The notes under the pieces were generated by a model that worked only from the letters and a program-made list of their open reading frames with translations, was not told the origin of the DNA and did no database searches. From Burkholderiales bacterium (GTDB lineage Bacteria; Pseudomonadota; Gammaproteobacteria; Burkholderiales; SG8-41), in assembly GCA_030684405.1 (NCBI GenBank), contig JAUXYA010000018.1, forward strand, positions 1 through 64,000: a DNA stretch of 64,000 bases. The letters are read 5' to 3'. Position 1 is the first letter of the stretch; each line of letters starts with the position of its first letter. Made by a program: the position numbers and the translations under genes. Shown piece after piece: positions 431-54,655 of this stretch.

Positions 431-3400
431 GCGACTTCTCCATGCGCCTGCACCGGGCGGATCAGTTCATCGGCGACCGGCGTGTCCAACCAGTCGATCT
501 TGACCATCTTGCGCACGACCACAAACTCGTCGCGGTTGGTGCCGATGGTGCCGTAGTAATTGAAACCGTAGCTCTGTTGGGCATAACCGCCGATCATGTG
601 GGTGGGCTTCAACACGATCCGCGTCACCGAGTTGTGGATGCCGCCGCGCGCACCGGTGATTTCAGACCCCGGGGTGTTCACTATTTTTTCCTGCGCGTGG
701 TACATCATCACCATACCGGGATTCACCCGCTGGCTGACAACCGCCCGTGCCGCAATGGCGCCGTTGATATTGAACAGTTCCACCCAGTCGTTGTCGACGA
801 TGCCGGCCCGCTGCGCGTCGTCCTCGGAGAGCCAGATGCACGGCCCGCCGCGGCTCAGCGTGAGCATCATCAGGTTGTCGGTGTAAGTGGAGTGGATGCC
901 CCACTTCTGGTGAGGCGTGATGAAGTTCAGCAGGATTTCCGGGTTGCCGTTGCTTTTCACGCCATGGATGCCGGCGGTGGTCTTCAAATCCACCGGCGGA
1001 CGATAGCTGGCCAGTCCTTCGCCGAACGCCCGCATCCACGGGTGATCGAGGTAGAACTGCTGGCGCCCGGTCAGCGTGCGCCACGGTATCAGCTCATGCA
1101 CATTGGTAAAACCGGCGTTGTAGGAGACAGTCTCGCTCTCGATGCCGCTCCAGGTCGGCGATGAGATGATCTTCCTCGGCTGTGCCTGGATGTCGCGAAA
1201 ACGGATTTTCTCGTCTTCCCGGTGTAGCGCGAGATGGGCATGCTCGCGGCCGGTCTGCTTGCCCAACGCCTGCCACGCCTTGACAGCGACGTGGCCGTTG
1301 GTCTCGGGCGCAAGTTGCAGCACCACCTCGCAGGCGTCGATGTCCGTCTCGATCTTCGGCATGCCGCAACTGGCACCCTCAGCGGTAACCAGCCCGTTGA
1401 GTTCGCCGATCTGCTTCACTTCAGTCTGGGTGTTCCAGCCGATGCCCTTGCCGCCATTGCCCAGCTTGTTCATCAGCGGGCCCAGGGCAGTGAACCGTTT
1501 ATAGACGTTGGGATAATCACGCTCGACCACGGTTATCTGCGGCGCCGTTTTTCCGGGAATTAGCTCGCACTCGCCACGTTTCCAGTCCTTCACGTCAAAA
1601 GCCTGGGCCAATTCGGCGGGGGTGTCGTGCATCAGCGGCGTCAGTACCAGTTCCTTTTCCACGCCGAGGTGGCCGACGCAGACTTCGCTGAATTTTCTGG
1701 CAAAACCCTTGTAGATTTCCCAGTCGCTGCGTGATTGCCAGGCCGGGTCTACAGCGGTCGACAGCGGATGGATGAACGGGTGCATATCGCTGGTATTGAG
1801 ATCGTTTTTCTCATACCAGGTGGCGGTGGGCAGCACGATATCCGAGTACAGGCAGGTGGTGCTCATGCGGAAATCCAGCGTGACCAGCAGGTCGAGCTTC
1901 CCTTCCGGCGCCTGGTCATGCCAAACCACCTCCTCCGGCTTGGCGTCGTCCGCACCCAGATCCTTGCCCTGCACGCCGTGGCTGGTGCCCAGCAGATGCT
2001 TGAGGAAATATTCATGGCCCTTGCCGCTGGAGCCGAGCAGGTTGGAGCGCCAGACGAAGAGGTTGCGCGGCCAGTTGGCCGGATGGTCCGGATCCTGACA
2101 GCTCATTTGCAGTGAGCCGTCCTTCAGCGACTTGACCGCATAGTCCTTGGGATCCATGCCCGAAGCCTGCGCATCGCGCACCACCTGCAGCGGATTGGTC
2201 TGCAGTTGCGGCGCGGAAGGCAGCCAGCCCATGCGCTCCGCGCGCACGTTGTAGTCGATCATGCTGCCGCCGAATTTTTGCTTGTCAGCCAGCGGTGACA
2301 GAACTTCGGCCATGCCGAGCTTCTCGTAGCGCCACTGATCGGTGTGGGCGTAGAAAAAGCTGGTGCTGTTCTGCTGGCGCGGCGGGCGTATCCAGTCAAG
2401 TGCAAATGCCAGCGCGGTCCAGCCGGTTTGTGGCCGCAGTTTTTCCTGGCCGACATAATGCGCCCAGCCGCCGCCGCTTTTGCCGATGCAGCCGCACATC
2501 ATCAGCATGTTGATGATGCCGCGGTAATTCATGTCGCTGTGATACCAGTGATTCATCGCCGCGCCGATGATGACCATCGACCGGCCCTGTGTCTTCTCGG
2601 CATTCTCGGCAAACTGGCGGGCCACGGCGATCACCTGGTCTCGCGGTGTGCCGGTGATGCGCTCCTGCCATGCCGGCGTGTACGGCGTGTCATCGTCATA
2701 GCTGTCTGCCGCCAGTTCACCGGGCAGGCCCCGTGCGACGCCGTAGTTGGCGGCCTGCAGGTCAAACACCGTGGCGACCAGCACCTCGCCTTGCTCACCA
2801 GCCTTGCCCAGCGCGATGCGCTGCACGGGGACCGTGCGCACCAGCACGTCGGCGTTCTCGCCGCTCAGCGCGCTGTTCTGAAAATGTTCGCTGACGATGC
2901 CGCCAAAATAGGGGAACCCGACCCTGGCGGTATCCACGGATGGCGGGCTGCCTTCGAGCAACGACAGCTTGAGCCTGACGTCATTGCCCTGCTGCGCGTC
3001 CTTCGCCTCGAGGTTCCACTGCCCCTGGTCGGCGCGGCCATCGGGGCCCCAGCGAAAACCGATGGCGCCGTTGGGCAGTACCACTGTGCCGTCCTCGCCC
3101 AATGCCACGGTCTTCCATTCGGGATTGTTGGCCTGGCCCAGTTGGCCCTCGAAATCAGAGGCTCGTACATAACGGTCGGGCACCATGACCTTGTCGCCGT
3201 TGGGCAAGGTGTGCGCTTTGAGCATCACCAGCATCGGCAGGTCAGTGTAGCGGCGCGCGTAATCATCAAAGTAGGCGCTGCGTTTCTTAAAATAGAACTC
3301 GGTGAGGATCACATGGCCCATCGCCATCGCCACCGCGGCATCAGTACCCTGCTTGGGATGCAGCCAGATGTCGGCCAGCTTGGCCACTTCGGAGTAGTCC

Positions 3401-4245
3401 GGGGTCACCGCGACGGTCTTGGTCCCCTTGTAACGCACCTCAGTGAAAAAGTGCGCGTCCGGAGTGCGCGTTTGCGGCACATTTGAACCCCAGGCAATGA
3501 TGAAACCGGAGTTGTACCAGTCCGCGGATTCAGGTACGTCTGTCTGCTCGCCCCAGACCTGCGGGCTGGCTGGCGGCAGATCGCAATACCAGTCGTAAAA
3601 ACTCATGCACACGCCGCCGATCAGGCTCAGATAACGGCTGCCGGCGGCATAACTCACCATCGACATCGCCGGGATTGGTGAAAAGCCGATCACCCTATCG
3701 GGCCCGTATTTCTTGATCGTGTAGACATTGGCTGCGGCAACGATTTCGTTGACTTCGTCCCAGTTCGCACGCACAAAACCGCCGAGCCCGCGCACACACT
3801 GGTAGTCACGCCGCGATTCCTCGGACTCAACGATGGCAGCCCAAGCCGCAACAGGCGACTTGCCCAGCCGCGCCTCCCGCCAGCGTTTCAACAGCCGGCC
3901 ACGTACCAGCGGGTGCTTCACGCGATTCGCGCTGTACAGATACCAGCTGTAGCTGGCACCTCGAGAACAACCGCGCGGTTCATGGTTGGGCATGTCCCAA
4001 CGTGTACGCGGGTAATCGGTCTGCTGGGTTTCCCAGGTAACAATGCCGCCTTTGACGTAGATCTTCCATGAACACGACCCGGTGCAGTTCACGCCGTGAG
4101 TGGAACGCACGATCTTGTCGTGCGCCCAACGGTTGCGGTAGGCGTCTTCCCAGGTACGGTCTGCGCCGTTGGCCACGCCGAAACCGTCGGCAAAAGACTC
4201 CCGCGGGCTGGAGAAGTAGGTCAGTCGATCAAGAAAATGGCTCAT
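427..4245 (-). CDS. narG: Respiratory nitrate reductase alpha subunit (molybdopterin catalytic subunit)
   Basis: A protein of 1272 residues, the usual length of membrane-bound NarG. It reduces nitrate to nitrite at a Mo-bis-MGD site facing the cytoplasm. The N-terminal FS0 cluster motif is visible (HDKIVRSTHGVNCTGSCSW, with a later cysteine in EPRGCSRG), as is the DWYCDLPPASPQ segment containing the Mo-ligand aspartate. MSHFLDRLTYF matches the known N-terminus MSKFLDRF. I chose the ATG at 4245 rather than the GTG two codons earlier because GAGG lies at a suitable distance upstream (GAGG-TGCAC-ATG). No twin-arginine signal of the periplasmic Nap/pNar type is seen. It lies downstream of three narK-type genes and overlaps narH by four bases. 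Confidence 0.98.
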   Translation of the reverse strand: MSHFLDRLTYFSSPRESFADGFGVANGADRTWEDAYRNRWAHDKIVRSTHGVNCTGSCSWKIYVKGGIVTWETQQTDYPRTRWDMPNHEPRGCSRGASYSWYLYSANRVKHPLVRGRLLKRWREARLGKSPVAAWAAIVESEESRRDYQCVRGLGGFVRANWDEVNEIVAAANVYTIKKYGPDRVIGFSPIPAMSMVSYAAGSRYLSLIGGVCMSFYDWYCDLPPASPQVWGEQTDVPESADWYNSGFIIAWGSNVPQTRTPDAHFFTEVRYKGTKTVAVTPDYSEVAKLADIWLHPKQGTDAAVAMAMGHVILTEFYFKKRSAYFDDYARRYTDLPMLVMLKAHTLPNGDKVMVPDRYVRASDFEGQLGQANNPEWKTVALGEDGTVVLPNGAIGFRWGPDGRADQGQWNLEAKDAQQGNDVRLKLSLLEGSPPSVDTARVGFPYFGGIVSEHFQNSALSGENADVLVRTVPVQRIALGKAGEQGEVLVATVFDLQAANYGVARGLPGELAADSYDDDTPYTPAWQERITGTPRDQVIAVARQFAENAEKTQGRSMVIIGAAMNHWYHSDMNYRGIINMLMMCGCIGKSGGGWAHYVGQEKLRPQTGWTALAFALDWIRPPRQQNSTSFFYAHTDQWRYEKLGMAEVLSPLADKQKFGGSMIDYNVRAERMGWLPSAPQLQTNPLQVVRDAQASGMDPKDYAVKSLKDGSLQMSCQDPDHPANWPRNLFVWRSNLLGSSGKGHEYFLKHLLGTSHGVQGKDLGADDAKPEEVVWHDQAPEGKLDLLVTLDFRMSTTCLYSDIVLPTATWYEKNDLNTSDMHPFIHPLSTAVDPAWQSRSDWEIYKGFARKFSEVCVGHLGVEKELVLTPLMHDTPAELAQAFDVKDWKRGECELIPGKTAPQITVVERDYPNVYKRFTALGPLMNKLGNGGKGIGWNTQTEVKQIGELNGLVTAEGASCGMPKIETDIDACEVVLQLAPETNGHVAVKAWQALGKQTGREHAHLALHREDEKIRFRDIQAQPRKIISSPTWSGIESETVSYNAGFTNVHELIPWRTLTGRQQFYLDHPWMRAFGEGLASYRPPVDLKTTAGIHGVKSNGNPEILLNFITPHQKWGIHSTYTDNLMMLTLSRGGPCIWLSEDDAQRAGIVDNDWVELFNINGAIAARAVVSQRVNPGMVMMYHAQEKIVNTPGSEITGARGGIHNSVTRIVLKPTHMIGGYAQQSYGFNYYGTIGTNRDEFVVVRKMVKIDWLDTPVADELIRPVQAHGEVA

Positions 4246-4343
4246 GTGCACCTCGTGATTCGTGAATGGTCAGATTTGAAACCCGTGCGACTTGAAGTTG
4301 TATCGCGATTACCCTGCACTATCTGCTGCCTCCATCATTCCCC

Positions 4344-5729
4344 TCAACACGGCATCTCGGCGTTTTTGCGCGAGTAATACCACCAGGTCATCAGGATGCA
4401 GGTGCAGTAAAAAACCATGAACACATAGAGTGCAGCCTCCGGCCCTCCAGTGACTGCTATCGATGTGCCGTAGCTCTTGGGAATGAAAAAACCGCCGTAG
4501 GCGCCAATCGCCGACGTGAAGCCGAGTACTGCCGCAGCCTCCTTGTTTGCATCCCTGACGGCCTGCTCCTCCACCGATGCGTCCTTGCCCTCGGCGGCAC
4601 GCCTGCGCTCGGTGAGAAAAATGACCGGGATCATGCGAAACGTGGAGCCGTTGCCGATACCCGTGGTGAAGAACAGAAGCAGGAATGCCGCCAGAAATCC
4701 GGGCAGGTTTCCGCTGTGATCTGCGGACGGCAGGCTGAACAGCACGGCCGCCACCGCAAGTGCCATGACCAGAAAATTCCAGAAGGTGACCCGCGCCCCG
4801 CCCACGCGGTCGGCCAGCCAGCCACCCACCGGGCGCATCAGCGCACCAACCAGCGGTCCGATGAACACGTACTGCGTAGCCTCGATCGCTGGAAACGCCG
4901 TCTGCAGCAACAATGGAAATCCGGCCGAATGACCGATAAAAGATCCGAAGGTGCCGAGATACAGCCATGACATCAGCCAGTTGTGTTTGCGCACGAAAAT
5001 TACGGACTGTTCGGCAAACGATGCCCGCGCTCCGGGTATGTCGTTCATTCCGAACCAGGCTGCCAGAGTAGCCAGTGCAATGGCCGGAACCCAGACGAAT
5101 CCGGCGTTCTGCAGCCAGATCTCCCTGGTTGCACCCGATCCGCTCCACATTTGCGGTGCGCCGCTGATTGCGCCAAACAGGCCGCTGACGATCACCAGCG
5201 GCACTACAAATTGCGCCACCGACACCCCGAGATTGCCCAGGCCTCCATTCAATCCCAGCGCGACTCCCTTCTGTGTCGCAGGAAAGAAAAAGCTGATGTT
5301 GGCCATGCTGGAGGCAAAATTGCCGCCGCCCAGTCCGCAGAGCAGTGCCAGCAGCAGCAGTGTGGGATAAGTGGTGTCCGGATCCTGTACCGCAAATCCG
5401 ATTCCCAATGCCGGCAGCAGTAGCGACGCAGTGGACAATGTGGTCCACACCCGACCGCCAAACATCGGAACCATGAATGCGTAGAAAATACGCAGCGTCG
5501 CACCGCACAGGGCGGGGAGCGCCGCCAGCCAGAACAACTGATTGGTGGAAAAGCGGAACCCCACATGTGGAAGATTGACCACCACCACGCTCCACATCAT
5601 CCACACTGCGAAGGAAAGCATCAGCGTCAGCACCGAGATCCACAGGTTGCGGCGTGCGATACGCGCCCCTTGCCGAGCCCAAAACTCGGGGTTCTCGGGC
5701 TCCCAGTAGGTCAGGGGTTCGGATTTCAT
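4344..5729 (-). CDS. narK: NarK-family nitrate/nitrite MFS carrier, 461 aa
   Basis: A twelve-helix MFS protein of the nitrate/nitrite porter family. Both nitrate signature motifs are present: GLGGGNFASSMANISFFFP after helix 4-5 and GIGNGSTFRMIPVIF near helix 10-11. The two substrate-binding arginines of NarK have likely equivalents in GATLRIFYAF and MRPVGGWLADR. It would move nitrate in, by proton symport or in exchange for nitrite. It lies 98 bases upstream of narG on the same strand and 38 bases after a second carrier, so it probably belongs to the nar transcript. Which of the carriers is the symporter (NarK1) and which the antiporter (NarK2) cannot be decided from sequence alone. Confidence 0.93.
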   Translation of the reverse strand: MKSEPLTYWEPENPEFWARQGARIARRNLWISVLTLMLSFAVWMMWSVVVVNLPHVGFRFSTNQLFWLAALPALCGATLRIFYAFMVPMFGGRVWTTLSTASLLLPALGIGFAVQDPDTTYPTLLLLALLCGLGGGNFASSMANISFFFPATQKGVALGLNGGLGNLGVSVAQFVVPLVIVSGLFGAISGAPQMWSGSGATREIWLQNAGFVWVPAIALATLAAWFGMNDIPGARASFAEQSVIFVRKHNWLMSWLYLGTFGSFIGHSAGFPLLLQTAFPAIEATQYVFIGPLVGALMRPVGGWLADRVGGARVTFWNFLVMALAVAAVLFSLPSADHSGNLPGFLAAFLLLFFTTGIGNGSTFRMIPVIFLTERRRAAEGKDASVEEQAVRDANKEAAAVLGFTSAIGAYGGFFIPKSYGTSIAVTGGPEAALYVFMVFYCTCILMTWWYYSRKNAEMPC

Positions 5730-5767
5730 GACGCATTACGCATCCGCTTTTCTGTCTTATTCGATGA

Positions 5768-7429
5768 TCAGGGATTTTTGACGTACGCGTTCTTGCGCAG
5801 GTAGAACCACCAGTTCAGCACCAGGCACACAGCGTAGAACACTGCAAATCCGTACATCGAATACTCTGGCGTGCCGGCCTTGACCTGGCTGCCAATCACC
5901 ACCGGTGCGACGAATGCTCCGTAGGCACCAACCGCTGAAGTCCAGCCCAGCACCGGTCCGGCTTGTTGCCGGTCAAAGATCACGCCGATGGTACGGAAGG
6001 TGGAGCCGTTGCCGATGCCGGTGGCCGCGAATAACACGACGAACAACACCATGAACACCAGGAAATACTCTTCCGGCGTCGGAGACTTGTAGGCTAGCAG
6101 CATCACATAACCCACCGCAGCGGAGGCCACTACCATCACTGCCGAAATGATCTGGGTGACGATGGAACCACCGACTCTGTCGGAAACCCAGCCGCCCAAG
6201 GGGCGGATCAGCGCACCGACGAAGGGGCCGATCCAGGCATAAGTCATCGCGGACGGTGCGTTGGGGTTTTTCATGGTGTGCTGCATGACACCGGCAGCAT
6301 CCGGCACATGGCTGACGCCGAAGATCACGGTGATCGACAGCGGCAGTGCCATCGAGAAGCCGATAAACGAGCCGAAAGTAACGATATACAGCGCCGTCAT
6401 CGACCAAGTGTGCTTGTTGCTGAAAATTTCAAACTGCTTGGCAATATTTCCCTTCATTTCGCCAAAGGCGGCAAGCTTCATCGCCAGCAGCGTACCAATC
6501 ATGATCAGCGGCAACGCCACCCACATGTTGAGCAAACCGAGACCGACAGGCTCGGGCAGGTAAAGGTAGAGTCCCAGGCCACCAACTAGGAAGGTAATTC
6601 CCCACAGGTAAATGATTTTGGAAAAAGCAGCCAGCGTGCCGCCATAGTTGGGAGATAACGGCAGCAGGTTATTCATGCCGAACCAGGCCGCAATCACCAG
6701 TGGCGCCAGAATGGCCGCCCAGACGAATCCGGCGTTCTGTATAAACGTGGGCGTCCCGGCAAGGATCTTGCCGAATATCCAGCCACTATCCTTGAGCAGC
6801 GTCATCGGCTCACCCGCAATCGCGCCAAAGACGCCAGCGGTCATCACCAGGGGGATCAGCACCTGCATGGTGGTGACGCCGAAATTGCCCAGCCCCGCGT
6901 TCAGCCCCAGTGCCGTTCCCTGTGCGCGCTTGGGAAAAAAACCACTGATATTGGACATGGAACAGGCGAAATTGCCGCCGCCAATGCCGGACAAAAACGC
7001 CCAGAACTGGAACACATACAGTGGTGTGGTCTTGTCCTGCAGAGCGATGCCCGTGCCGACAGCCGGAATGATCAGAAGCGCGGTGGTCAGGAATATGGTG
7101 TTGCGACCGCCGCAAAGCCGGATGAAAAACGACGCGGGTATGCGCAGGGTCGCGCCCATCAGGCCGGCGATTGCGCTCAGGGTAAACAGCTCTGCCGGCT
7201 TGAAAGGGAAGCCGAGGTTGATCATTTGCACCGTGATCATTCCCCACATCAACCACACGGCAAAACCGCACAGCAGGTTGGGAATCGATATCCACAGATT
7301 GCGGTTGGCAATGCCCTTGCCCTTGGCTTCCCAGAAGGCATTGTCTTCGACATTCCACTCCGCAATGTCTGCGGAATTGTAAACAGTCAGTTTCTCGCTG
7401 CCCGCTGAACCTGATTGTTCTTTTTTCAT
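5768..7429 (-). CDS. narK: NarK-family nitrate/nitrite MFS carrier, 553 aa
   Basis: A second nitrate/nitrite porter with the same two signature motifs (GIGGGNFACSMSNISGFFP and GIGNGSTFRTIGVIF) and conserved arginines (GATLRIPASFF, IRPLGGWVSDR). It is about 90 residues longer than the neighbouring paralogue. The extra length lies between the two halves and holds two additional hydrophobic stretches (around residues 243-310), so the topology may be 14 helices instead of 12. A good ribosome site, GGAG-TTAAC-ATG, supports the start. It lies between the other two carrier genes; a short CGCCG/CGGCG stem followed by AT-rich sequence sits in the 56 bases upstream. Duplicated narK genes upstream of narGHJI are common in denitrifiers. 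Confidence 0.93.
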   Translation of the reverse strand: MKKEQSGSAGSEKLTVYNSADIAEWNVEDNAFWEAKGKGIANRNLWISIPNLLCGFAVWLMWGMITVQMINLGFPFKPAELFTLSAIAGLMGATLRIPASFFIRLCGGRNTIFLTTALLIIPAVGTGIALQDKTTPLYVFQFWAFLSGIGGGNFACSMSNISGFFPKRAQGTALGLNAGLGNFGVTTMQVLIPLVMTAGVFGAIAGEPMTLLKDSGWIFGKILAGTPTFIQNAGFVWAAILAPLVIAAWFGMNNLLPLSPNYGGTLAAFSKIIYLWGITFLVGGLGLYLYLPEPVGLGLLNMWVALPLIMIGTLLAMKLAAFGEMKGNIAKQFEIFSNKHTWSMTALYIVTFGSFIGFSMALPLSITVIFGVSHVPDAAGVMQHTMKNPNAPSAMTYAWIGPFVGALIRPLGGWVSDRVGGSIVTQIISAVMVVASAAVGYVMLLAYKSPTPEEYFLVFMVLFVVLFAATGIGNGSTFRTIGVIFDRQQAGPVLGWTSAVGAYGAFVAPVVIGSQVKAGTPEYSMYGFAVFYAVCLVLNWWFYLRKNAYVKNP

Positions 7430-7485
7430 GTTAACTCCAATGCTCTGATTTTATAAATTCGCCGCAACTCCGGCGTTCGCATATA

Positions 7486-9129
7486 TCAAGTAGCGCCTGA
7501 CTTCTGTAGCCGGAGTCGATCTACCACCTGTTGCAACTCCTTAATGCCACGGAAGCGCGCCGTGAGCTGAAGGCCATCGCCCTGATCGACCAGTTCCACC
7601 TTGTCGCTGCCCTGGAGCAGACTGACCAAATCGGCCTCAGCCTGCTTTTTCTGTTGGGCCTCAAGTGCAATTGCCTTGTCCACCGACGAGATCACGTATT
7701 CATCGCTGAAACCGCCTTCGGGCTCCATCAGCCAGAAGTAGCACACCACCCAGCTGATAAATGCACCGGCCGCGACAATAAAGAAGAACTGCTGCGGCGT
7801 GACCAGTGTGAACACGAACAGGTAGAACACCGCGCCGACGTTACCGTAAGCACCGGCCATACCCGAGATCTGACCCGTCAGGCGACGCTTGATTGAGGGG
7901 ATAATTCCGAAGGTCGCGCCCTCCGCACCCTGCACGAAGAACGAACACCCGATCGTGAAAGCAACAGCCACGACCAGTGGCCAACTCGAGTCGAGCAGAC
8001 CCATCAGCACGAAGCCAATACCGATCCCGAACATGTAAGCCATCATCACGAAGCGGCGGTTGCCGAAACGGTCGGAAACCAAGCCGCCCATCGGCCGGGC
8101 AAACAGGTTCACAAAAGCGAAGCTGGCCGCGATCGCGCCGGCCGCCGCCGCACCCAATCCCCAAGTCTGCTCAAAGAACATCGGCAGCATCGACACCACT
8201 GCAAGTTCGGCACCAAAGTTTGCAAAGTAGGTAACGTTGAGCGCCGCCACCGACTTGAATGGGTATCTGTCATCAGCAGGCACGCCCTTCCTCAGGATCG
8301 GGACATTGATACGAAGCGCCTGCACGATCTGATAAAGCACCACCGCCGCGATGACTGCGTAGAACAGACCCGCCATCATGCTATCGATGTAGCCCATCTT
8401 CTGGACGCGGTAAACCAGGATCGACAGTATTCCAACAAGGGGCACGATAAAGATGCACAGCATTACCAAGTCACGCCAGCTCGACACCTCCAGCGCCGCG
8501 ACTTTGCGCGGCTTCTTTTGCGTGTCGGGCGTGGGCCCGTCGGTGATGGCAAACCAGTAGAACACGCCATAGACCGCCATCACGATGCCCGAGGTCGCAA
8601 TTGCCCAGCGCCAGCCGTCGGCGCCGCCAAAGAACAACAAGGCGATGGTCGGCAACGTCATTGCCGCGCCCGCCGAACCGAAATTTCCCCAGCCGGCATA
8701 GAAGCCTTCGGCGAAGCCGATGTGGCGCGGCTTGAACCATAGTGCAGTCATGTGGATGCCAACCACGAAGCTGGCACCGACCGAGCTCAGCACCAGGCGC
8801 GAGACCAGCAGCTGCGTCTTGTTTTCGCCAAATGCGAATGCCAGCGTCGGCAGCGCCATGATCACCATCAACAAGGAAAAGCAGCGGCGCGGACCCCACT
8901 TGTCAAGCGCCATGCCAATCAGGATGCGCGCCGGGATCGTCAGCGCCACGTTGGCAATGGCGAACAGCCGGATGTCGTCGCGCGTCAACCAACCCTCGCT
9001 GCGCAGCATCGAGGATGCCAGCGGCGCCATGTTGAACCATACGTAGAAGCAAATGAAGAAGGCGATCCACGTCAGGTGGAGCGCCTTTATTTCAGGGTTC
9101 TTGTAACGAAACAGGTCACTAACTTGCAT
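7486..9129 (-). CDS. Third nitrate-transporter-like MFS protein with a C-terminal cytoplasmic tail, 547 aa
   Basis: An MFS protein of a different branch from the two NarK proteins downstream. It begins MQVSDLFRYKNPEIKALHLT and has YVWFNMAPLASSM in helix 1, resembling NRT/NasA-like porters. Helix 4-5 has YAGWGNFGSAGAAMTLP in place of the NarK signature, and the MFS motif is RPMGGLVSDRFGNRR. The last roughly 80 residues, after the final helix (FWLMEPEGG), are soluble and predicted helical with an acidic, then basic, region. That tail could be regulatory. Placement between usp and narK points to nitrate or nitrite; a related anion is possible. The start has GAGA eight bases upstream. Confidence 0.8.
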   Translation of the reverse strand: MQVSDLFRYKNPEIKALHLTWIAFFICFYVWFNMAPLASSMLRSEGWLTRDDIRLFAIANVALTIPARILIGMALDKWGPRRCFSLLMVIMALPTLAFAFGENKTQLLVSRLVLSSVGASFVVGIHMTALWFKPRHIGFAEGFYAGWGNFGSAGAAMTLPTIALLFFGGADGWRWAIATSGIVMAVYGVFYWFAITDGPTPDTQKKPRKVAALEVSSWRDLVMLCIFIVPLVGILSILVYRVQKMGYIDSMMAGLFYAVIAAVVLYQIVQALRINVPILRKGVPADDRYPFKSVAALNVTYFANFGAELAVVSMLPMFFEQTWGLGAAAAGAIAASFAFVNLFARPMGGLVSDRFGNRRFVMMAYMFGIGIGFVLMGLLDSSWPLVVAVAFTIGCSFFVQGAEGATFGIIPSIKRRLTGQISGMAGAYGNVGAVFYLFVFTLVTPQQFFFIVAAGAFISWVVCYFWLMEPEGGFSDEYVISSVDKAIALEAQQKKQAEADLVSLLQGSDKVELVDQGDGLQLTARFRGIKELQQVVDRLRLQKSGAT

Positions 9130-9180
9130 GATTCGTCTCAGTGAAAATAGTTGTGCTCAGCATTTGGCTCGCTCTCCGCT

Positions 9181-9645
9181 TCACTGTGTATGTGTGGGCA
9201 CGATGAGCAACGGACATTGCGCCCGACGTGCCAGAAAGGCACTGACCGAGCCGAAGGTCATGTGGTCGAACTCCTCAACCAGAGCGTCGAGATGACGGGT
9301 GATAAAGTTGCTGTCGGGTTTGTGGGAATGGCGCGCGATCACCAGCAGGTCAGGCCGGCGTTCTTCAGTGGCGCGCAGGATCATCTTGCGCGCGTCGCCT
9401 TCGGCGAACAGCACCTTGGCGGTAAAGCCAGCAGCAACCAACTCGGCCGCCGCCTTTTCGGCGCCGTCCTTCTGCTCCTGGTACTGCTGCCGGAACATCT
9501 CGTCCTCGCTGCTACTGGTGCTGCCGGGCACCTCGATTACCGAAATCAGCGTGACATTCGGTCTTTCGGTGGCAAACAGCCGCTTAACAATATCGAGTGC
9601 GATGCGTGAGTTGCGTGAGTGGTCGTAGGCAAGCATGAGTTCCAT
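9181..9645 (-). CDS. Universal stress protein, UspA family
   Basis: A 154-residue single-domain Usp. It begins MELMLAYDHSRNSRIALDI and ends with the typical FGSVSAFLARRAQCPLLIVP segment, in which G-S-V-S matches the ATP-binding loop region G-2x-G-9x-G(S/T) only loosely. Usp proteins are cytoplasmic stress or energy-state regulators; several are induced by anoxia under FNR/ANR control. I selected the ATG at 9645 because GGGGA lies eight bases upstream, and because a small upstream ORF stops four bases before it. Placed as the first full-size gene ahead of the three nitrate carriers, it may be co-transcribed with them. Its biochemical role cannot be told from the sequence. Confidence 0.88.
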   Translation of the reverse strand: MELMLAYDHSRNSRIALDIVKRLFATERPNVTLISVIEVPGSTSSSEDEMFRQQYQEQKDGAEKAAAELVAAGFTAKVLFAEGDARKMILRATEERRPDLLVIARHSHKPDSNFITRHLDALVEEFDHMTFGSVSAFLARRAQCPLLIVPTHTQ

Positions 9646-48455: not shown

Positions 48456-49250
48456 TCAAACAGTAACCGTGTGCGTGACCAGCGCCTGGCCATCCCAGTG
48501 ATGCAACTGGTACGCCGGGGCCTCCTGCAAATCGGCCTCGAAGCGCCCCGCCCCCAGCCGCAGCTTCGCCTGAAACGCGGTGCTCGGACAGACCGACAGC
48601 AACACACCCTGCCACACCCCCTGCACCCCGCGGTGCACATGGCCGCACAACACAGCCTTGACCTGGCGATGACGCGCAACGATGGCACCCAGTTGCCCTG
48701 CGTTTTCCGGAGCCACGGCGATACGATCCATCCGCGAAAAACCGGTGGCCGCCGGTGGATGATGCATGAATATCAGGGCGGGGATTGCCGGCCGATCCGC
48801 CAGCACTCTGTCGAGCCACTGCAACTGGGCCTCGTCAAGGTCGCCGCCCTCCCGCCCTTCGATCACGCTGTCCAGCGCGATTACCCGGAGTCCGCGCACG
48901 TCGCGATAAAAATGCATACGGCCGGAGCTACCCAGATAGTCGTGGTCGGCAAAGACTTGCCGCAGCGGCGCACGACGGTCGTGGTTGCCCGGCATCAGGC
49001 ACAGCGGCACTTCGAGCGCAGACAGCAGATCGCGCAATCTTGCGTATTCACCGGGCTCGCCCTGATCGACGAGGTCGCCACTCGCCACCAGCAGGTCGGG
49101 CGGCCTGTCGAGAGCACGCAGGTGACGGATGCAGCGCTCCAGTCCGCTGACGGTGTCAGTACCGAAACCGTCGCGTGCCCCAGCCACAACATGCAGGTCG
49201 GAGAACTGCGCGATCACCACAGGCCTGCCTGGAGCCGCGGCGACACTCAC
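48456..49250 (-). CDS. cpdA: Calcineurin-like phosphodiesterase (CpdA-type cAMP phosphodiesterase)
   Basis: A 264-residue metallophosphoesterase with the full set of metal motifs: QFSDLHVVAG, VASGDLVDQGEPGEY, LMPGNHDRR, LIFMHHPPAATGF and LCGHVHRGVQG. The C-terminal QGVLLSVCPSTAFQ resembles the Icc/CpdA family, which hydrolyses cAMP. A membrane adenylate cyclase and a cyclic-nucleotide-binding protein are encoded in the same window. The start is GTG, overlapping the stop of the aas-like gene by four bases. A different phosphoester substrate is possible. Confidence 0.82.
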   Translation of the reverse strand: MSVAAAPGRPVVIAQFSDLHVVAGARDGFGTDTVSGLERCIRHLRALDRPPDLLVASGDLVDQGEPGEYARLRDLLSALEVPLCLMPGNHDRRAPLRQVFADHDYLGSSGRMHFYRDVRGLRVIALDSVIEGREGGDLDEAQLQWLDRVLADRPAIPALIFMHHPPAATGFSRMDRIAVAPENAGQLGAIVARHRQVKAVLCGHVHRGVQGVWQGVLLSVCPSTAFQAKLRLGAGRFEADLQEAPAYQLHHWDGQALVTHTVTV

Positions 49251-51367
49251 AGGACCACCATATCCTTCAGGGTCACGTAGTCAATCTTGCCCGAGCCGAG
49301 CAGCGGCAGGTTGTCGACCTTGATCACCCGCCGCGCCACCGCCAGTTCCTGCGCATTGATCTGACGCGCCGCATGCTGCAGCGCGATGCGGTCGAGCGCA
49401 GGATCGGTGGTGAGCAGCACCGTGCTCTCGCCCGAGCGCGTCATTTCGACAACCGCGGCATGCTTGAATCCGGGCGAAGCGTGGTAGGCGATGGTTTCGA
49501 CGCGCTCCAGCGATACCATTTCGCCGGCGATCTTGGCGAAACGCTTGACCCGACCAAGCACGGTGACAAAACCGTCGCCATCGACGCTGACCACGTCGCC
49601 AGTGTTGTACCAGCCCTCGCCGACCTCGGAGCGCGGCGCCTGCAGCACGCCCGGCTGTTCGTGGAAAAAGTAACCCTGCATCAGGTTGGGGCCACGCACA
49701 TGGACCACCCCGCCCTGCTCGATGCCGGGCACTGGCACCACCCGGTATTCGATACCGGGCAGGAAGCGGCCCACCGTCCCTGCGCGATAGGTCAATGGCG
49801 CGTTGAAAGCCATCGCCGGGCCGCACTCGGTGGCACCGTAGCCCTCATGCACACGCAGGCCGAACTTCGAGAACCACTGCTGCGCAACCTCGGGATGCAG
49901 TTTCTCACCCCCGGAAATGACGAAGCGCATGCGGTAAAAATCGTAGGCGTGGGCCTGGCGCGCGTAATTGCCGAGAAAGGTGCTGGTGCCGAAAATATAG
50001 GTGCAATCGCGGGTATAGGCGTACTCCGGAATCACCTTGTAATGCAGCGGATTGGTGTAAAGGAACAGACGCGTCCCGGTCAGCAGCGGCATCAGCGTGC
50101 CGACCACCAGTCCGAATATGTGGTACATCGGCAGCGCATTGAGGTACTTGTCGTCAGGTCCGAAATCGATCACCGCGCGCAGCTGCGCCATCGAAGCCAG
50201 CATGCCGTCCTGCGACAGCGCGACGCCCTTGGGACGTGCCTCTGATCCTGAAGTGAACAGCACCACCGCAGTGGCCGCCGGATCCGTCTCCGGCAAGGCG
50301 CTGCGCGGATGCAGCAGCGCGCGCAGGATCCACAGCTTGTCGGCGAGCCCCATCGTCTCGCGCAGATCCTCGACGTAGACGATGCGACAGGAAGACAGCG
50401 CATCAAGCAGCGGCTGCAGGCGCGCGACCTCGACGAAGCTGCGCGAGGTGATCACCGTACGGATAGTGGCTGCCGCGCAAGCCCCGCGCACCGACTCGGC
50501 GCCGCTGGAGTAATTGAGCATTGCTGCGACACGGCCGCGGGATGCCAGGCCAAAGACCAGACAGACCGTGGCACCGATGTTCGGCATCAGCACGCCGACA
50601 CGTTCCCCCGGCTGCGTGAACTTCGCGGTGAGCCGGCCCAGCGCAAATGATCCCTTGAGCAGGTCGGCATAGGTGGTGAGTTGGCCGCGGACATCCTCGA
50701 AGATGCGGGTGCGGCGCCCGTGCAGCGCGGCGGCGTCCAGCAGCGCCCGGAACAGCGAGCGCCGCGGCTCGGCCGCCGCCATCGCCTGCTGCATGATGCC
50801 CTGCAGATGGTCGTTGATGCGTTGGCGCCGCGACCCTTCACCGGCAGCCGGCGCCGCGAAACGCTTGACGGGTAGCAGTTGCAGCGTCACCCGTGGAAAG
50901 CGCTGCCGCGGCCAGCGCAGGCCGGTTGCCGCCCAGCGCGTGTACAGCGTGCCCTGGATGCGCAGCGGAATGACATCGGCCTCGGCACGCAACGCGATGA
51001 CACCCGCAGCACCATAGACTTTCATCGTGCTGCCCGTGGTGCTTACCCGGTCCTGCGGGAACATCACCACCGGGCGTCCCGCGCGCACCGCCCGCAGCAG
51101 GCGCTTGACCGTAGCACCGCCGGAATCGCCCGGTTCTACACACTCAGTACATCGTCGCACCAATGCAGCGATGCGGTGCCCGGCCAGGGCACGTGGCAAT
51201 ACGATCAAAGGGGCACCGGGCAGGTACAACGCCACCAGCAGGGCGTCGAGCAGGGAATCGTGATTAGCCAGCACCAGCGGCCGTCCGTGGAGTAGCGCAT
51301 CGGCGTGGCCGACGACGCGCACTCGGAACAGGAGGCCCAGCAGCAGCTTCAGGATGGCGCGCAGCAT
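49247..51367 (-). CDS. Acyltransferase-AMP ligase fusion (Aas-like)
   Basis: A 706-residue protein. An N-terminal PlsC-type acyltransferase domain (about 1-190) has NHDSLLDALLVAL (H-x4-D) and PVVMFPQDRVS. It is joined to an acyl-activating AMP-ligase with VVLFTSGSEARPKGVALS, YHIFGLVVGTLMPLL, EGYGATECGPAMAFN and GWYNTGDVVSVDGDGF. E. coli Aas re-acylates lysophosphatidylethanolamine using acyl-ACP made in situ. No MFS domain (as in LplT-Aas fusions) is present. It is divergent from the RpfF gene across 327 bases, so it could activate or recycle fatty acids tied to that signal, an inference from position alone. Confidence 0.85.
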   Translation of the reverse strand: MLRAILKLLLGLLFRVRVVGHADALLHGRPLVLANHDSLLDALLVALYLPGAPLIVLPRALAGHRIAALVRRCTECVEPGDSGGATVKRLLRAVRAGRPVVMFPQDRVSTTGSTMKVYGAAGVIALRAEADVIPLRIQGTLYTRWAATGLRWPRQRFPRVTLQLLPVKRFAAPAAGEGSRRQRINDHLQGIMQQAMAAAEPRRSLFRALLDAAALHGRRTRIFEDVRGQLTTYADLLKGSFALGRLTAKFTQPGERVGVLMPNIGATVCLVFGLASRGRVAAMLNYSSGAESVRGACAAATIRTVITSRSFVEVARLQPLLDALSSCRIVYVEDLRETMGLADKLWILRALLHPRSALPETDPAATAVVLFTSGSEARPKGVALSQDGMLASMAQLRAVIDFGPDDKYLNALPMYHIFGLVVGTLMPLLTGTRLFLYTNPLHYKVIPEYAYTRDCTYIFGTSTFLGNYARQAHAYDFYRMRFVISGGEKLHPEVAQQWFSKFGLRVHEGYGATECGPAMAFNAPLTYRAGTVGRFLPGIEYRVVPVPGIEQGGVVHVRGPNLMQGYFFHEQPGVLQAPRSEVGEGWYNTGDVVSVDGDGFVTVLGRVKRFAKIAGEMVSLERVETIAYHASPGFKHAAVVEMTRSGESTVLLTTDPALDRIALQHAARQINAQELAVARRVIKVDNLPLLGSGKIDYVTLKDMVVL

Positions 51368-51694
51368 TCGTAATAACAGTACGCGTGTCGGGGGGATGTC
51401 CTAACCAGCGCATGGTTTTAACGGCTCATCCCTCGCGAGTCAAACAGTTCGACATGACCGCCACCGCGCGGATCGTCGCGGGGCGGGCCACAAGCCATGG
51501 CGTACAGCGCTGCGCATTGCTGCCATCCATGGCGGTTTGACGCCCCATCATGAATGTAACTATATGTTTTTATTTATTATTTTTAAAATCTCTCACTTTG
51601 TTAGATTTGCCGGCCAATGCATCCTGACCTTTAATCATTCTCGGGAAAGCACCGTGCTTCCCGTTCGATCAACGTCTTAACTAGGAGATACATC
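51368..51694. promoter_or_regulatory. Divergent regulatory region between the aas-like gene and rpfF
   Basis: 327 bases without a credible gene. The aas-proximal half is GC-rich and featureless. The rpfF-proximal part has an AT-rich block (51557-51590), an inverted repeat AAATCT-11-AGATTT at 51586-51608, and a hairpin at 51643-51662 (GGGAA and GCA paired to TGC and TTCCC, one bulged A). A strong ribosome site AGGAGATACATC precedes rpfF. Confidence 0.6.
51557..51583 (+). repeat. 27-bp AT-rich element also found at the narL stop
   Basis: TAACTATA followed by TGTTTTTATTTATTATTTT. The same 27 bases with two differences occur at 9878-9904, overlapping the end of narL. Confidence 0.6.
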
Positions 51695-52621
51695 ATGGAA
51701 ATGCAAGTCCCGGCAGCCGTCATCGACGTCCACCACGCCGCAGTTCGTCCGGATTTCAACGCCCACCTCGAGTTCCGCTTCTCGCCGCAACTGCACGCTC
51801 ATTTCGACCGCCAGACCCGTGCCTTGTGGTCACGCTGGACAGCGGCTCCGCGTCCCTGCTTCAATCCCGGCCTGCTCGCCGACATCCGCGCCTATTACAG
51901 CTTTGTCGCGGAAAGCGGTGGAGCGATCGATTGCGGGGACAGCAGCGAGCCGATCGATTACGTGATCCTCGCCTCCGGCATGCCCGGGGTCTTCAACCTC
52001 GGCGGGGACCTCGACCTGTTCCGCCAGAAAATCGACAACCGCGACCGCAACGCGCTGTCAACTTACGGCCGCGCCTGCATCGACGTGCTTTACCGCAACT
52101 ACGTCGGCCACGATCTACCGGTGACCACCATATCGCTGGTACAAGGCGAATGCCTGGGCGGCGGCTTCGAAGCGGCGCTGTCGAGCGACGTCATCATCGC
52201 CGAGCGGGGCTCGCGCTTCGGCTTCCCGGAAATCCTGTTCAACCTGTTCCCGGGCATGGGCGCCTACTCCTTCCTCGACCGCAAGGTGGGCCAGCGCGCA
52301 GCGGAAGCCATCATCTCCTCCGGAAAGATTTACACCGCCGAGGAAATGCGCGCTCTGGGTGTCATCGACGTGGTGGCCGAGGATGGCGAAGGCGATGCCG
52401 CAGTCAACGCGTTGATCAAGCAGCGCTCCCGTTCGCGCAACGGCATGGCCGCACTTGCCGCAGTGCGCCGCCGCGTGCACCAGATCACCTTCGAGGAGCT
52501 TGAGGACGTCGTCGGCGTCTGGGTCGACGCGGCGCTGCGCCTGACCACCCGCGACCTGAAACTGATGCAGCGGCTGGTATCGCGGCAGAACGGCCTGCAG
52601 GAACCGGCCGTGGTCCATTGA
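51695..52621 (+). CDS. rpfF: RpfF-type DSF (cis-2-unsaturated fatty acid) synthase, crotonase family
   Basis: A 308-residue crotonase-fold protein with the RpfF signature GECLGGGFEAALSSDV and GFPEILFNLFPGMGAYSFLDRKVG. The two glutamates needed for dehydratase and thioesterase action in Xanthomonas RpfF (E141 and E161) correspond to E159 and E179, with the same twenty-residue separation. RpfF converts 3-hydroxyacyl-ACP to cis-2-enoyl-ACP and releases the free acid signal. The N-terminus is about 20 residues longer than Xanthomonas RpfF. It has its own leader with a hairpin and is followed fifteen bases later by the MerR-PAS-GGDEF-EAL gene. A generic enoyl-CoA hydratase role is unlikely given the FNLFPGMGAY segment. 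Confidence 0.9.
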   Translation: MEMQVPAAVIDVHHAAVRPDFNAHLEFRFSPQLHAHFDRQTRALWSRWTAAPRPCFNPGLLADIRAYYSFVAESGGAIDCGDSSEPIDYVILASGMPGVFNLGGDLDLFRQKIDNRDRNALSTYGRACIDVLYRNYVGHDLPVTTISLVQGECLGGGFEAALSSDVIIAERGSRFGFPEILFNLFPGMGAYSFLDRKVGQRAAEAIISSGKIYTAEEMRALGVIDVVAEDGEGDAAVNALIKQRSRSRNGMAALAAVRRRVHQITFEELEDVVGVWVDAALRLTTRDLKLMQRLVSRQNGLQEPAVVH

Positions 52622-52636
52622 GCGGCGGAGAACTGC

Positions 52637-54655
52637 ATGAAAAAGCATCGCCAGAGGGGCTCTGTTACACTGCGGAAAAGGCCATCCCGGGCCCAGGGGC
52701 AAGGCAAGACCGAGGATATGTCCGAACACGAGCACTCCTACACCATGGAGCAGACATCGCGGCTGCTCGGCATCTCGGCGCAGAAGCTCCGGCGCTGGGA
52801 TGAACAGGGCATTCTCGGCGCCCTGCGTACGGAGGGAGGTCATCGCCGCTATCCCCGGGAAGTCATCGACCGTCTGGTCCAGGCCAATGGCGGCGCTTTT
52901 GCCGAGAAAACCTCCCGCGAACTGGCCAGCGTCAAGAAAACGCTAGCCGAAAAACGGCGGATCATCCAGCTTCTGATCGAAAGCGAGGGCCGTTACCGTG
53001 ATCTTGTCGAAACCTCGCACGACCTGATCTGGCAGACCGATGCCGAAGGCCGGTTTACCTATCTGAATGCCGCCGCCCACGAGATCTTCGGTCTGGCACC
53101 AAAGGATCTGATCGGGCGCTGTTTTTTCAACTTCGAGACCAACGGCGCGCATGTGCCGAACCGCCGTTTCCTGTCCACCCTGCGCCGCGGCGGTGAAGTG
53201 CAGAACCACGTCACCCACCTCACCACGGCGCGGGGCGAAGACCGCTGGATCGGCATCAATGCCCGCATTACCCGCGATGAAAGCGGACAAATGCTCGGTA
53301 TTCGGGGCACTGCCCGCGACGTCACCGAGCAGCACCTCGCGATACGGCGCGCCGAGCATGTCGCACTTCACGACGCACTGACCGACCTTCCCAACCGCAG
53401 CGCGTTGCAGCGGCAGGTCGAGGTCGCACTGCAATCCGGGCAACCCGGCGCGATCGTGATGATCGACATGGACCATTTCAAGCGCGTCAATGCGTCCTTC
53501 GGACACGGCGCCGGCGACCAGCTTGTGCTGGGCCTTGCCGGCGTACTGCGCAGCGTCGCCCGCGACCGCCACGGCGAACTGTTCCGCATCGGCGAAGACC
53601 AGTTTGCGCTGCACCTCCCCGATGCGCGCCGGGAGGAAGCCCAGGCTGCGGCGGCGATCGCGCTCGCTGCCGTTCAGAACTACCGGCTTGAATCCTCACA
53701 CAACCGCGTCATATCCAGCATCACCGCGTCAATCGGCGTGGCCCTGCACCCTCTGCACGGCGACAACTGGGCAGGCCTGCTCGCCGCGATGGATGCAGCG
53801 ACCCATCAGGCCAAGGATCAGGGCCGAAACCGTGTCACTCTGTTCAATCCTGCATCCGACGCCTTGCGGGCCAGCCACCGCCGCACCCACTGGTCACGGC
53901 TCATCGCCGAAGCTCTGGATCAGGACGAGATTGCGCTGTATGTGCAACCGGCTGTGCAACTGCGAACCGGCGTTTCCGTGCACCAGGAAATTTTCCTGCG
54001 CATTCGCGACGAGGACGGCCAGTGGGCCGAGGCGCGGCAGTTCATCGGCACCGCGGAATCGATGGGTTACGCGCCTGCGCTTGATCAGCGTGTTCTGACA
54101 CGCGTATTGACGCACATCCATGAGCAGGGCAGCCGGCAGTTGCAGCGCTACTCGATCAACCTTTCGGCAGCGTCGATCTCCGACCGCGCCTGGGTCGGAG
54201 AGTTCGTCGAGATCATGCGGGAATCCGGCGTGTCAGGCGAACGCATGGTTTTCGAACTCAGCGAAAAGGCGGCGATGGAAAACATCGACGCTACGGCGTC
54301 CTTCATCGACCAGCTGCGGCCGCTGGGTTCTCGCTTCGCCCTCGATGACTTCGGCACCGGCTTCAGCTCGTTCTATTACCTGAAGCGCTTCGAAGTCGAT
54401 TACCTCAAGATCAACGCGAGCTTCACCCAAGACCTGCACGAGAACTCGGAAAGCCGCGTGTTCATGAAAGCCGTCAACGGACTGGCCCGCGACCTGAAGC
54501 GCCAGGTAGTCGCCAAGGGCGTCGAAAATGCTGAAACACTGAAATTGCTGAAAGAGGCCGGCACACTGTACGCGCAGGGGCGTTTTCTGCAACCAGTGTC
54601 GCGCCTCGGCGAAGACGTGGCCCGACGCCGCAGCCGCGGCGCGCAGCGCGCCTGA
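52637..54655 (+). CDS. MerR-type HTH / PAS / degenerate GGDEF / degenerate EAL regulator
   Basis: 672 residues. Order: a basic N-terminal arm (1-27), a MerR-type HTH (about 35-82, YTMEQTSRLLGISAQKLRRW and GGHRRYPREVIDRL), a coiled coil (about 88-118), a PAS domain (about 117-235), GGDEF (about 240-402) and EAL (about 415-660). The GGDEF signature reads GEDQF (319-323), so cyclase activity is probably lost. In the EAL domain the signature reads EIF (E451), while N508, E540, D570, D571 and K591 are kept, but the AEGVE general-base glutamate is lysine (K627). It may bind c-di-GMP without cleaving it. The ATG at 52637 has GGAG six bases upstream; MSEHEHSY (52718) is the alternative start. It is co-transcribed with rpfF. 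Confidence 0.9.
   Translation: MKKHRQRGSVTLRKRPSRAQGQGKTEDMSEHEHSYTMEQTSRLLGISAQKLRRWDEQGILGALRTEGGHRRYPREVIDRLVQANGGAFAEKTSRELASVKKTLAEKRRIIQLLIESEGRYRDLVETSHDLIWQTDAEGRFTYLNAAAHEIFGLAPKDLIGRCFFNFETNGAHVPNRRFLSTLRRGGEVQNHVTHLTTARGEDRWIGINARITRDESGQMLGIRGTARDVTEQHLAIRRAEHVALHDALTDLPNRSALQRQVEVALQSGQPGAIVMIDMDHFKRVNASFGHGAGDQLVLGLAGVLRSVARDRHGELFRIGEDQFALHLPDARREEAQAAAAIALAAVQNYRLESSHNRVISSITASIGVALHPLHGDNWAGLLAAMDAATHQAKDQGRNRVTLFNPASDALRASHRRTHWSRLIAEALDQDEIALYVQPAVQLRTGVSVHQEIFLRIRDEDGQWAEARQFIGTAESMGYAPALDQRVLTRVLTHIHEQGSRQLQRYSINLSAASISDRAWVGEFVEIMRESGVSGERMVFELSEKAAMENIDATASFIDQLRPLGSRFALDDFGTGFSSFYYLKRFEVDYLKINASFTQDLHENSESRVFMKAVNGLARDLKRQVVAKGVENAETLKLLKEAGTLYAQGRFLQPVSRLGEDVARRRSRGAQRA

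Follow-up and report, generated by a model that had tools for sequence, protein, structure and literature searches.

An RpfF-type Synthase Paired with a MerR-PAS-GGDEF-EAL Regulator in Burkholderiales: a Candidate One-component Signaling Circuit

The Question Raised by the Locus

Can a signal of the diffusible signal factor (DSF) family be read by a protein that itself binds DNA? The receptors RpfC and RpfR reach transcription through partner proteins, whereas in the stretch of DNA analyzed here (the window; 64,000 nucleotides of a Burkholderiales bacterium, GenBank assembly GCA_030684405.1, contig JAUXYA010000018.1, positions 1 to 64,000) a DNA-binding head is fused to a PAS-GGDEF-EAL body in a protein tied to a synthase of the DSF type. 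The genome that holds the window comprises 3.74 Mb in 37 contigs, and the two genes concerned are as follows.

51695-52621, plus strand: rpfF, a DSF-synthase-type crotonase of 308 amino acids with catalytic E159 and E179 present.
52637-54655, plus strand: gene of the MerR-coiled coil-PAS-GGDEF-EAL regulator, 672 amino acids from M1 or 645 from M28 (52718).

The analysis described below makes it probable that the pair belongs to a DSF circuit of a third kind, distinct from RpfC/RpfG and RpfR, in which a one-component transcription factor is coupled with RpfF, an operator, and a small regulon.

The first-pass annotation of this DNA had described the two genes as an operon with a 15-bp gap. They do form a same-strand pair, but the gap measures 15 bp only if the regulator starts at M1 (52637) and widens to 96 bp with a start at M28. 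M1 has a plausible ribosome-binding site, as judged by eye, and in the relatives L040, L042, and L043 the earliest start is the equivalent of M28; either 52637 or 52718 may be the start.

Conservation of the rpfF-Regulator Pair

A sample of 200 genomes of Burkholderiales was searched, with thresholds of E<1e-100 for the RpfF clade and E<1e-50 for the HTH-PAS part of the regulator (HTH, helix-turn-helix). RpfF was found in 42 of the 200 genomes at E<1e-40, 27 of which constitute the near group at E<1e-100, and the regulator was found in 30. All 27 genomes with the RpfF clade carry the regulator, as compared with 3 of the 173 others; the pairing is well over chance, and the linkage proposed in the first-pass annotation is conserved in the order. 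In 26 of 26 loci of this set and in 27 of 28 from a collection of named genomes, the HTH of the regulator follows downstream of rpfF in the same orientation, the two sets of loci having at least five genomes in common. The exception, L049, has a NUDIX gene directly after rpfF and retains aas; in this 5.0-Mb draft genome of unstated completeness the regulator was not found at E<1e-12. The record titles Bordetella parapertussis (L043 and L049) and Mycobacterium sp. KBS0706 (L113) look wrong for these loci. At L047, an additional gene of 549 amino acids (5646-7292), with no Pfam match, stands between rpfF and the regulator gene.

The Burkholderiales that carry the pair are largely uncultured. A class-level search at E<1e-30 found the regulator in one of 369 genomes, the window's own, with at least four of the 369 belonging to the order, and G169, a genome of the window's genus, matched neither rpfF nor the regulator and contained 0 repeat sites. 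In the three genomes with a regulator and no RpfF match (G029, G075, and G084), the PAS domain is 62, 58, and 46% identical to that of the window; in G029 and G075 the regulator occupies the same place beside NUDIX and nuo genes, with rpfF and aas gone. Loci L118-L120 retain the regulator where rpfF and aas have been lost, with that of L118 and L120 still in the nuo-NUDIX position.

The aas gene precedes rpfF in divergent orientation at 21 of 26 and 27 of 28 loci of the two sets, some of the misses being short or cut loci. In the window it is found at the following position.

49247-51367, minus strand: aas, acyl-ACP synthetase/acyltransferase, divergent from rpfF and with a control region common to both; best NCBIfam match PRK08043 (771 bits as against the 886 required).

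Downstream of aas, an open reading frame (ORF) at 48456-49250 on the minus strand resembles a calcineurin-type phosphoesterase; a similarly placed neighbor in L048 (4685-5455) matches this Pfam family.

Identity and Relatives of RpfF

Both catalytic glutamates reported in the first-pass annotation, E159 and E179, are present and align with the glutamates of the PDB RpfF chains shown. The protein has a full-length crotonase match and scores above the PRK08788 cut-off (358 versus 177 bits), but below that of the RpfF equivalog NF053515 (212 versus 550 bits). As the first was passed and the stricter equivalog failed, the protein is termed an RpfF-type synthase and its product is regarded as putative. 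PDB RpfF chains are among its best matches, the RpfR-linked ones at 188 bits compared with 178-182 bits for the others (Xanthomonas-type); identity is 37-44% to three RpfR-linked RpfF proteins and ∼42-54% to RpfC-linked ones.

In a tree of 116 RpfF rows, unrooted and with the root placed at the midpoint, some rows being one gene fetched twice (e.g. L035 and L123), the window's gene context forms a single clade of 52 rows with support of 100/99. This clade comprises 47 regulator-labeled rows, three in which the regulator is cut off or lost (L011, L049, and L090), L123, and the RpfC-type L067, the last on a long branch and basal in the clade, as L123 is also. The regulator label additionally took L113, which lies outside the clade and whose neighbor is response-regulator-like and lacks MerR by sequence. 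Among the 64 rows outside the clade, 47 are RpfC-like by protein cluster, a label checked by domains in two representatives only: rpfF lies beside both a HisKA-HATPase-REC-Hpt and a REC-HD-GYP protein in L105, and beside a HisKA-HATPase-REC-Hpt protein in L129. In L121, L122, and L131, rpfF adjoins a PAS-GGDEF-EAL protein of the RpfR type, and a branch of 2.35 separates these RpfR-linked RpfF proteins from that of the window on the unrooted tree. No DNA-binding domain was found in the RpfC and RpfR representatives scanned.

Two loci deserve separate mention. The early-branching L123 has, within 2921-9382, RpfF, an 83-amino acid ORF, a PAS-GGDEF-EAL protein with a possible HTH, a ligase-only Aas, and a FadL-type porin, possibly an intermediate operon; its regulator has a weak HTH_17 match only (E 0.006). 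Genome G065 has two RpfF systems, L027 with the MerR-type regulator and L132 with RpfC/RpfG-like genes (by protein cluster).

An Inverted Repeat Upstream of rpfF

Common to the rpfF upstream regions is a 23-bp inverted repeat, AAAYCTAWCA-nnn-TGWTAGRTTT, which is absent from the first-pass annotation. In the window, it lies between aas and rpfF, overlapping a putative promoter.

51586-51608, no strand assigned: AAATCTCTCACTTTGTTAGATTT, the 23-bp inverted repeat and candidate operator for the regulator.
51607-51635, plus strand: putative rpfF promoter, picked by eye, with a −35-like TTGCCG (51607-51612) that overlaps the repeat and a −10-like TTTAAT (51630-51635).

With a symmetric weight matrix, trained on the same regions that it scores, the repeat outscores all 1020 shuffled regions in 48 of 51 non-redundant upstream regions, where the shuffles preserve base but not dinucleotide content. 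The exceptions are L049, which has no regulator, L025 (5.5 bits), and L028 (0.6 bits). A loose −10-like pattern, drawn up after the sequences had been inspected, follows 33 of the 43 sites scoring ≥20 and starts 20-22 bp past the repeat in 31 of these 33. The repeat ends at the inferred −35 of rpfF, with its center estimated to be near −45; activators usually bind near this −35/−45 position. Covariation between the arms of the repeat is weak across 48 sites (a match as good as that observed arose in 36 of 5000 partner shuffles) and is inflated by kinship.

Two further ideas were tried and abandoned. The regulators of L118-L120, which lack rpfF, have no repeat near them and so give no support to an autoregulation independent of rpfF. 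In L060 and L061 the repeat might have decayed along with a broken regulator, but this idea was set aside, as both are draft assemblies in which the frameshift may be an error; for the same reason, L049 by itself carries the argument from regulator loss.

Genome-wide Sites and Candidate Targets

The window's genome contains four sites at ≤2 mismatches and none for a reversed control pattern. Across the 200 genomes, at ≤1 mismatch, at least one site is present in 25 of 30 regulator-bearing genomes as compared with 19 of 170 others, and at least two sites are present in 16 of 30 and 0 of 170, respectively (Fisher p ∼9e-16); the reversed pattern gave one hit in 9 of the 200. All 19 hits outside the regulator-bearing genomes are single, and the zero-mismatch case among those listed (G107) falls inside a gene according to our own gene caller. 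At the same stringency, the genome of L049 has 0 sites, whereas between 1 and 5 were found in each of 11 further genomes traced from their loci.

A total of 64 sites was examined with flanks, one at rpfF and 63 elsewhere, 51 of the latter being strong (score ≥24), with the surrounding genes called by the same simple caller. Of these strong sites, 45 are intergenic and seven precede c-di-GMP (cyclic dimeric guanosine monophosphate) enzymes, which are listed here.

Window's genome, C35:262663: GGDEF-EAL protein.
G203: a relative of that protein, with a separate EAL gene.
G132: a Cache-GAF-GGDEF-EAL protein and a PAS-GAF-HD-GYP protein.
G036: a REC-PAS-GAF-GGDEF-EAL protein.
G207 and G210: related GGDEF proteins.

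For seven sites among 67 adjacent genes, the binomial p is 8e-7 at a c-di-GMP gene share of 0.75% and 7e-5 at 1.5%; the share is an assumption informed by six genomes of ∼26 Mb, in which GGDEF gave 130 matches. With this assumption, the simple gene caller, and the kinship among the seven (L224 and L227 are orthologues, and L173 and L243 are related), both values overstate the significance.

Other genes recur behind the repeat. A heme-oxygenase-like iron enzyme, which we take to belong to the UndA superfamily, is found in G148, G126, and G201 (Pfam Haem_oxygenas_2) and, by similarity, in G114 (loci L193, L199 by similarity, L200, and L211); by analogy with UndA, it could act on fatty acids. An orphan family of 121-137 amino acids occurs in G000, G046, G204, and G205 (G000:C6:6567, i.e. 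L171:5085-5462, and L175, L225, and L229); three of its members were scanned and match nothing in Pfam, and in the window's genome the family follows a thiolase-like ORF, by reading. A pilin-like protein follows the repeat in G118 (twice), G157, and G206, with three of the four sites scoring <24 and Pfam support for one, and type I secretion-like ABC transporter ATPases do so in G132 and G065. Targets seen once include, in G132, a LuxR-type autoinducer receptor and a Cys/Met metabolism enzyme; in G170, an MshEN-type ATPase together with an RsaL-like HTH protein; and, in G092, G039, and G046, a sigma-54 activator, an FAA hydrolase, and an RHS-repeat protein, respectively. A patatin-like phospholipase follows a site scoring 22.6 in L190. 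Many sites precede unnamed genes, including C30:93458, one of the four in the window's genome, which has no clear target.

These genes bear on the possibility that RpfF is no signal synthase at all and that RpfF and Aas act in the homeostasis of acyl-ACP and free fatty acids, with the regulator responding to lipid stress. The near-constant divergent aas would fit such a role, as would the low score of RpfF on its equivalog model and the FadL-type fatty acid porin in the L123 operon. We nevertheless judge it improbable, since the targets that can be named include c-di-GMP enzymes, secretion-like ATPases, the pilin-like protein, the LuxR-type regulator, and the MshEN ATPase, and no lipid synthesis enzyme appears among the target proteins scanned, although the phospholipase and the UndA-superfamily enzyme do occur. 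Moreover, an acyl ligase next to rpfF is also seen in Xanthomonas, in the form of RpfB.

Domains of the Regulator and Decay of its c-di-GMP Motifs

The four domains named in the first-pass annotation all score above their Pfam cut-offs.

52739-52879, plus strand: MerR-type DNA-binding domain (residues 35-81), Pfam MerR/MerR_1.
52991-53323, plus strand: PAS domain (residues 119-229), the best-conserved domain of the protein.
53363-53833, plus strand: GGDEF domain (Pfam residues 243-399), active-site motif degenerate (GEDQF).
53903-54592, plus strand: EAL domain (Pfam residues 423-652), with KIN for KID and AKGVE for AEGVE.

The head qualifies as a MerR HTH on both models (PF00376, 38.3 against a cut-off of 28.2; PF13411, 36.7 against 21.6), and its closest PDB sequences are MerR-type regulators, e.g. 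a cobalamin-binding protein and CarH. Mean identity of 23 relatives to the window protein falls from 73% in the PAS domain and 66% in the HTH to 56% in GGDEF and 51% in EAL. The PAS alignment of 20 sequences has a mean column identity of 76% and many invariant columns, with a signature common to the relatives around RYRDLVETSHDL and NRRF.

The residues of the GGDEF and EAL motifs have assigned roles in c-di-GMP enzymes. As a correction to the first-pass annotation, the window protein reads GEDQF in place of GGDEF, KIN in place of KID, and AKGVE in place of AEGVE, departing both from the GG(D/E)EF of active diguanylate cyclases and from the set of DDFG, KID, and AE..E expected of an active EAL phosphodiesterase; turnover of c-di-GMP by this protein is, judging from these motifs, unlikely. 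The motifs are degenerate throughout its group as compared here (the window, L038, L040, L041, L042, L044, and L058), in which all seven members have GEDQF or GEDRF, KIN/S/H/G at KID, and AKGVE. The other 17 aligned rows have GGDEF (13), GGDEY (3), or GGDTF (1), and in 11 of them DDFG, KID, and the first Glu of the last EAL motif are complete, at least one being missing in the remaining six. In this lineage the HTH, PAS domain, and operator have thus been kept while both enzymatic motifs decayed, which points to DNA binding and PAS input as the core function.

An AlphaFold model of the full regulator has a mean pLDDT (predicted local distance difference test) of 82.5 and a pTM (predicted template modeling score) of 0.44, so that the arrangement of domains is not predicted; for the PAS domain alone the values are 78.4 and 0.71, respectively.

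The PAS Domain Compared with RpfR

The first-pass annotation had called the body of the regulator RpfR-like. As a statement of family membership this fails: the protein scores 238 bits against the PRK10060 cut-off of 782, as compared with 1079 bits for the RpfR-type protein of L121; the N-terminal FI domain, which binds RpfF in RpfR, is lacking and a MerR domain stands in its place; and four of the five DSF-contact residues are changed. According to the structural report on RpfR, its ligand contacts are Ser169, Asn172, Tyr183, Arg187, and Asn202 (PMC6361424). At the first four, the window protein has Asn175, Phe178, Gln189, and Thr193, and the family as a whole carries Asn, Phe, Gln/Lys/Arg, and Thr/Ser, with Lys or Arg at the Tyr183 position in relatives outside the window's group. 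Asn202 is aligned with the invariant Asn208 by MAFFT and is off by one in the profile alignment. Among the RpfR-type controls, L121 has all five contacts with identical numbering, L122 shares the five letters, and L131 has three of five. The pocket hence differs from that of RpfR and may bind a fatty acid in another way.

An RpfR orthologue that has acquired a DNA-binding head, as in the original proposal, would have the identical PAS-GGDEF-EAL order and would explain why PRK10060 is the second-best NCBIfam match (beginning at model position 116), why the PAS profiles of the regulator and RpfR align at a probability of 92%, and why RpfR-linked PDB RpfF chains score slightly above the Xanthomonas-type ones. 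Membership of RpfR is, however, rejected on the score, domain, and residue tests given above, and the RpfF partner is distant from RpfR-linked RpfF (the 2.35 branch on the unrooted tree), making common descent of this kind highly improbable.

A different possibility is that the regulator acts on the repeat but that its PAS domain senses something other than DSF, such as redox state, light, or another metabolite, with rpfF and aas merely among its targets. The replaced contact residues are in keeping with this, as are the three genomes that keep the regulator without rpfF. At E<0.01, the RpfR structure (6dgg/6dgj) was missed by the regulator PAS profile, whereas the RpfR PAS profile picked it up. 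A fold search with the PAS model returned 1329 matches at E up to 10, with many LOV, heme, and flavin PAS domains and no entry named RpfR among the best 50 of the 1329, a result that is uninformative on the ligand. As for a heme cofactor, no heme-ligand His was seen at the one PAS position compared by eye with FixL and DosP. Against a non-DSF ligand stand the conservation of the PAS domain, the highest in the protein, its near-constant pairing with a gene of DSF-synthase type, and the placement of a synthase beside its receptor, which is the usual DSF arrangement; such a ligand appears rather unlikely.

A Model for the Circuit

In the one-component circuit favored here, a dimer of the regulator would bind the 23-bp repeat, whose end reaches the −35 region of rpfF, as well as a few similar sites elsewhere, including promoters of c-di-GMP enzymes. 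The gene pairing together with PAS conservation suggests that the small molecule read by the PAS domain would most likely be what RpfF makes or a fatty acid related to it, and the ligand signal could pass through the helix to the DNA-binding head. The position of the repeat suggests activation, and hence positive feedback in the form of signal-fed autoinduction. In the many members whose GGDEF-EAL tail has consensus motifs, it may contribute an input from c-di-GMP in the manner of trigger enzymes, whereas the decayed tail of the window's group may only bind a ligand or hold structure. Three points are inferred from sequence: that this protein binds the repeat, whether control is positive or negative, and which ligand is read.

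The original suggestion that promoters, possibly that of rpfF, are controlled directly is strengthened by the conserved linkage and by strong candidate operators at rpfF and at some c-di-GMP genes, which make it the most economical reading, while the binding itself is a prediction. A more specific version, in which the transcription factor is itself the receptor, autoregulates the synthase operon by way of a dedicated operator, and directly drives c-di-GMP genes, and in which one lineage lost the second-messenger input of the GGDEF-EAL tail and was left with a LuxR-like switch from fatty acid signal to promoter, is plausible but tentative, a little short of an even chance.

Several observations weigh against direct control by a DSF receptor. 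The regulator persists without its presumed target in G029, G075, and G084, which have no RpfF match; the first two have no site and the third a poor one inside a gene, so that sites track the pair and not the regulator alone. In L025 and L028 the regulator frame is open and a good repeat is missing upstream, and G057, G164, and G193 have both genes and no site at ≤1 mismatch (by the matrix, their rpfF sites score 21-26; L031, L033, and L032). The repeat also stands upstream of the −35, unlike the inverted repeat of classical MerR operators, which lies between −35 and −10. To these must be added the four contact positions at which the PAS domain departs from RpfR.

The rpfF-less genomes without good sites and the two loci with an open regulator frame and no repeat would be explained if the repeat belonged to another transcription factor, with the MerR protein acting elsewhere. 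This is a doubtful explanation, since the sites are co-distributed with the regulator and none was found in the genome in which it was not detected (L049). An inverted repeat also suits a dimeric MerR protein, and the other recurring neighbor families scanned at the locus contain no DNA-binding domain, one of these families being without a Pfam match. The circuit built on the MerR protein is directly testable by means of the candidate operator, the list of promoters, and the natural cases of gene loss.

Comparison with Known Systems

In the open-access literature, no description of RpfF with a MerR-PAS-GGDEF-EAL protein was found in titles or opening lines among the matches listed, subscription papers and preprints being outside the scope. 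A close counterpart is RpfF/RpfR of Burkholderia and Cronobacter, where a DSF synthase also stands beside a PAS-GGDEF-EAL protein. RpfR is described as having an FI domain that binds RpfF, a PAS domain with a defined DSF pocket, and convergent genes (PMC6361424), in contrast to the MerR head, the lack of FI, the same-strand genes, and the other pocket residues found here. In RpfF/RpfC/RpfG, relatives of RpfF that are 42-54% identical to the window protein lie beside HisKA-HATPase-REC-Hpt and mostly REC-HD-GYP proteins (domains checked in L105 and L129), and a phosphorelay leads to the HD-GYP enzyme, whereas a single DNA-binding protein would suffice in the present system.

Three Escherichia coli systems join c-di-GMP-type domains to transcription. 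PdeR (Gmr/YciR) is a relative of RpfR. This GGDEF-EAL protein controls the MerR-like transcription factor MlrA, as outlined in PMC5052742. PdeR, MlrA, and DgcM are separate polypeptides without a DSF synthase, whereas here the sensor, c-di-GMP-type domains, and MerR head are in one chain. In BluF-BluR, a degenerate EAL protein acts on a MerR-like repressor (PMC3509220); these are two proteins with a light input and no link to DSF, compared with the fused regulator of this locus. PdeL is not known to have the PAS domain, GGDEF domain, or signal synthase of the regulator locus. It combines a DNA-binding head, of a type that differs from MerR, with EAL in one chain. It is named as a trigger phosphodiesterase and effector in PMC5052742. 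The series seen in this family, in which c-di-GMP domains decay while DNA binding is kept, is relevant to the evolution of trigger enzymes toward pure effectors.

In two other cases DSF signals act on transcription. RpfR reaches it by contacting the activator BerB, according to PMC9684580; that transcription factor is separate and RpoN-dependent, whereas it is fused here. VirF, a transcription factor of Shigella, belongs to another species, is unpaired with a DSF synthase, and is not known to have PAS or c-di-GMP-type domains. It is bound by signals of the DSF family, as reported in PMC10425336. A dedicated synthase co-inherited with its own DNA-binding receptor would, if true, be a fatty acid counterpart of LuxI/LuxR.

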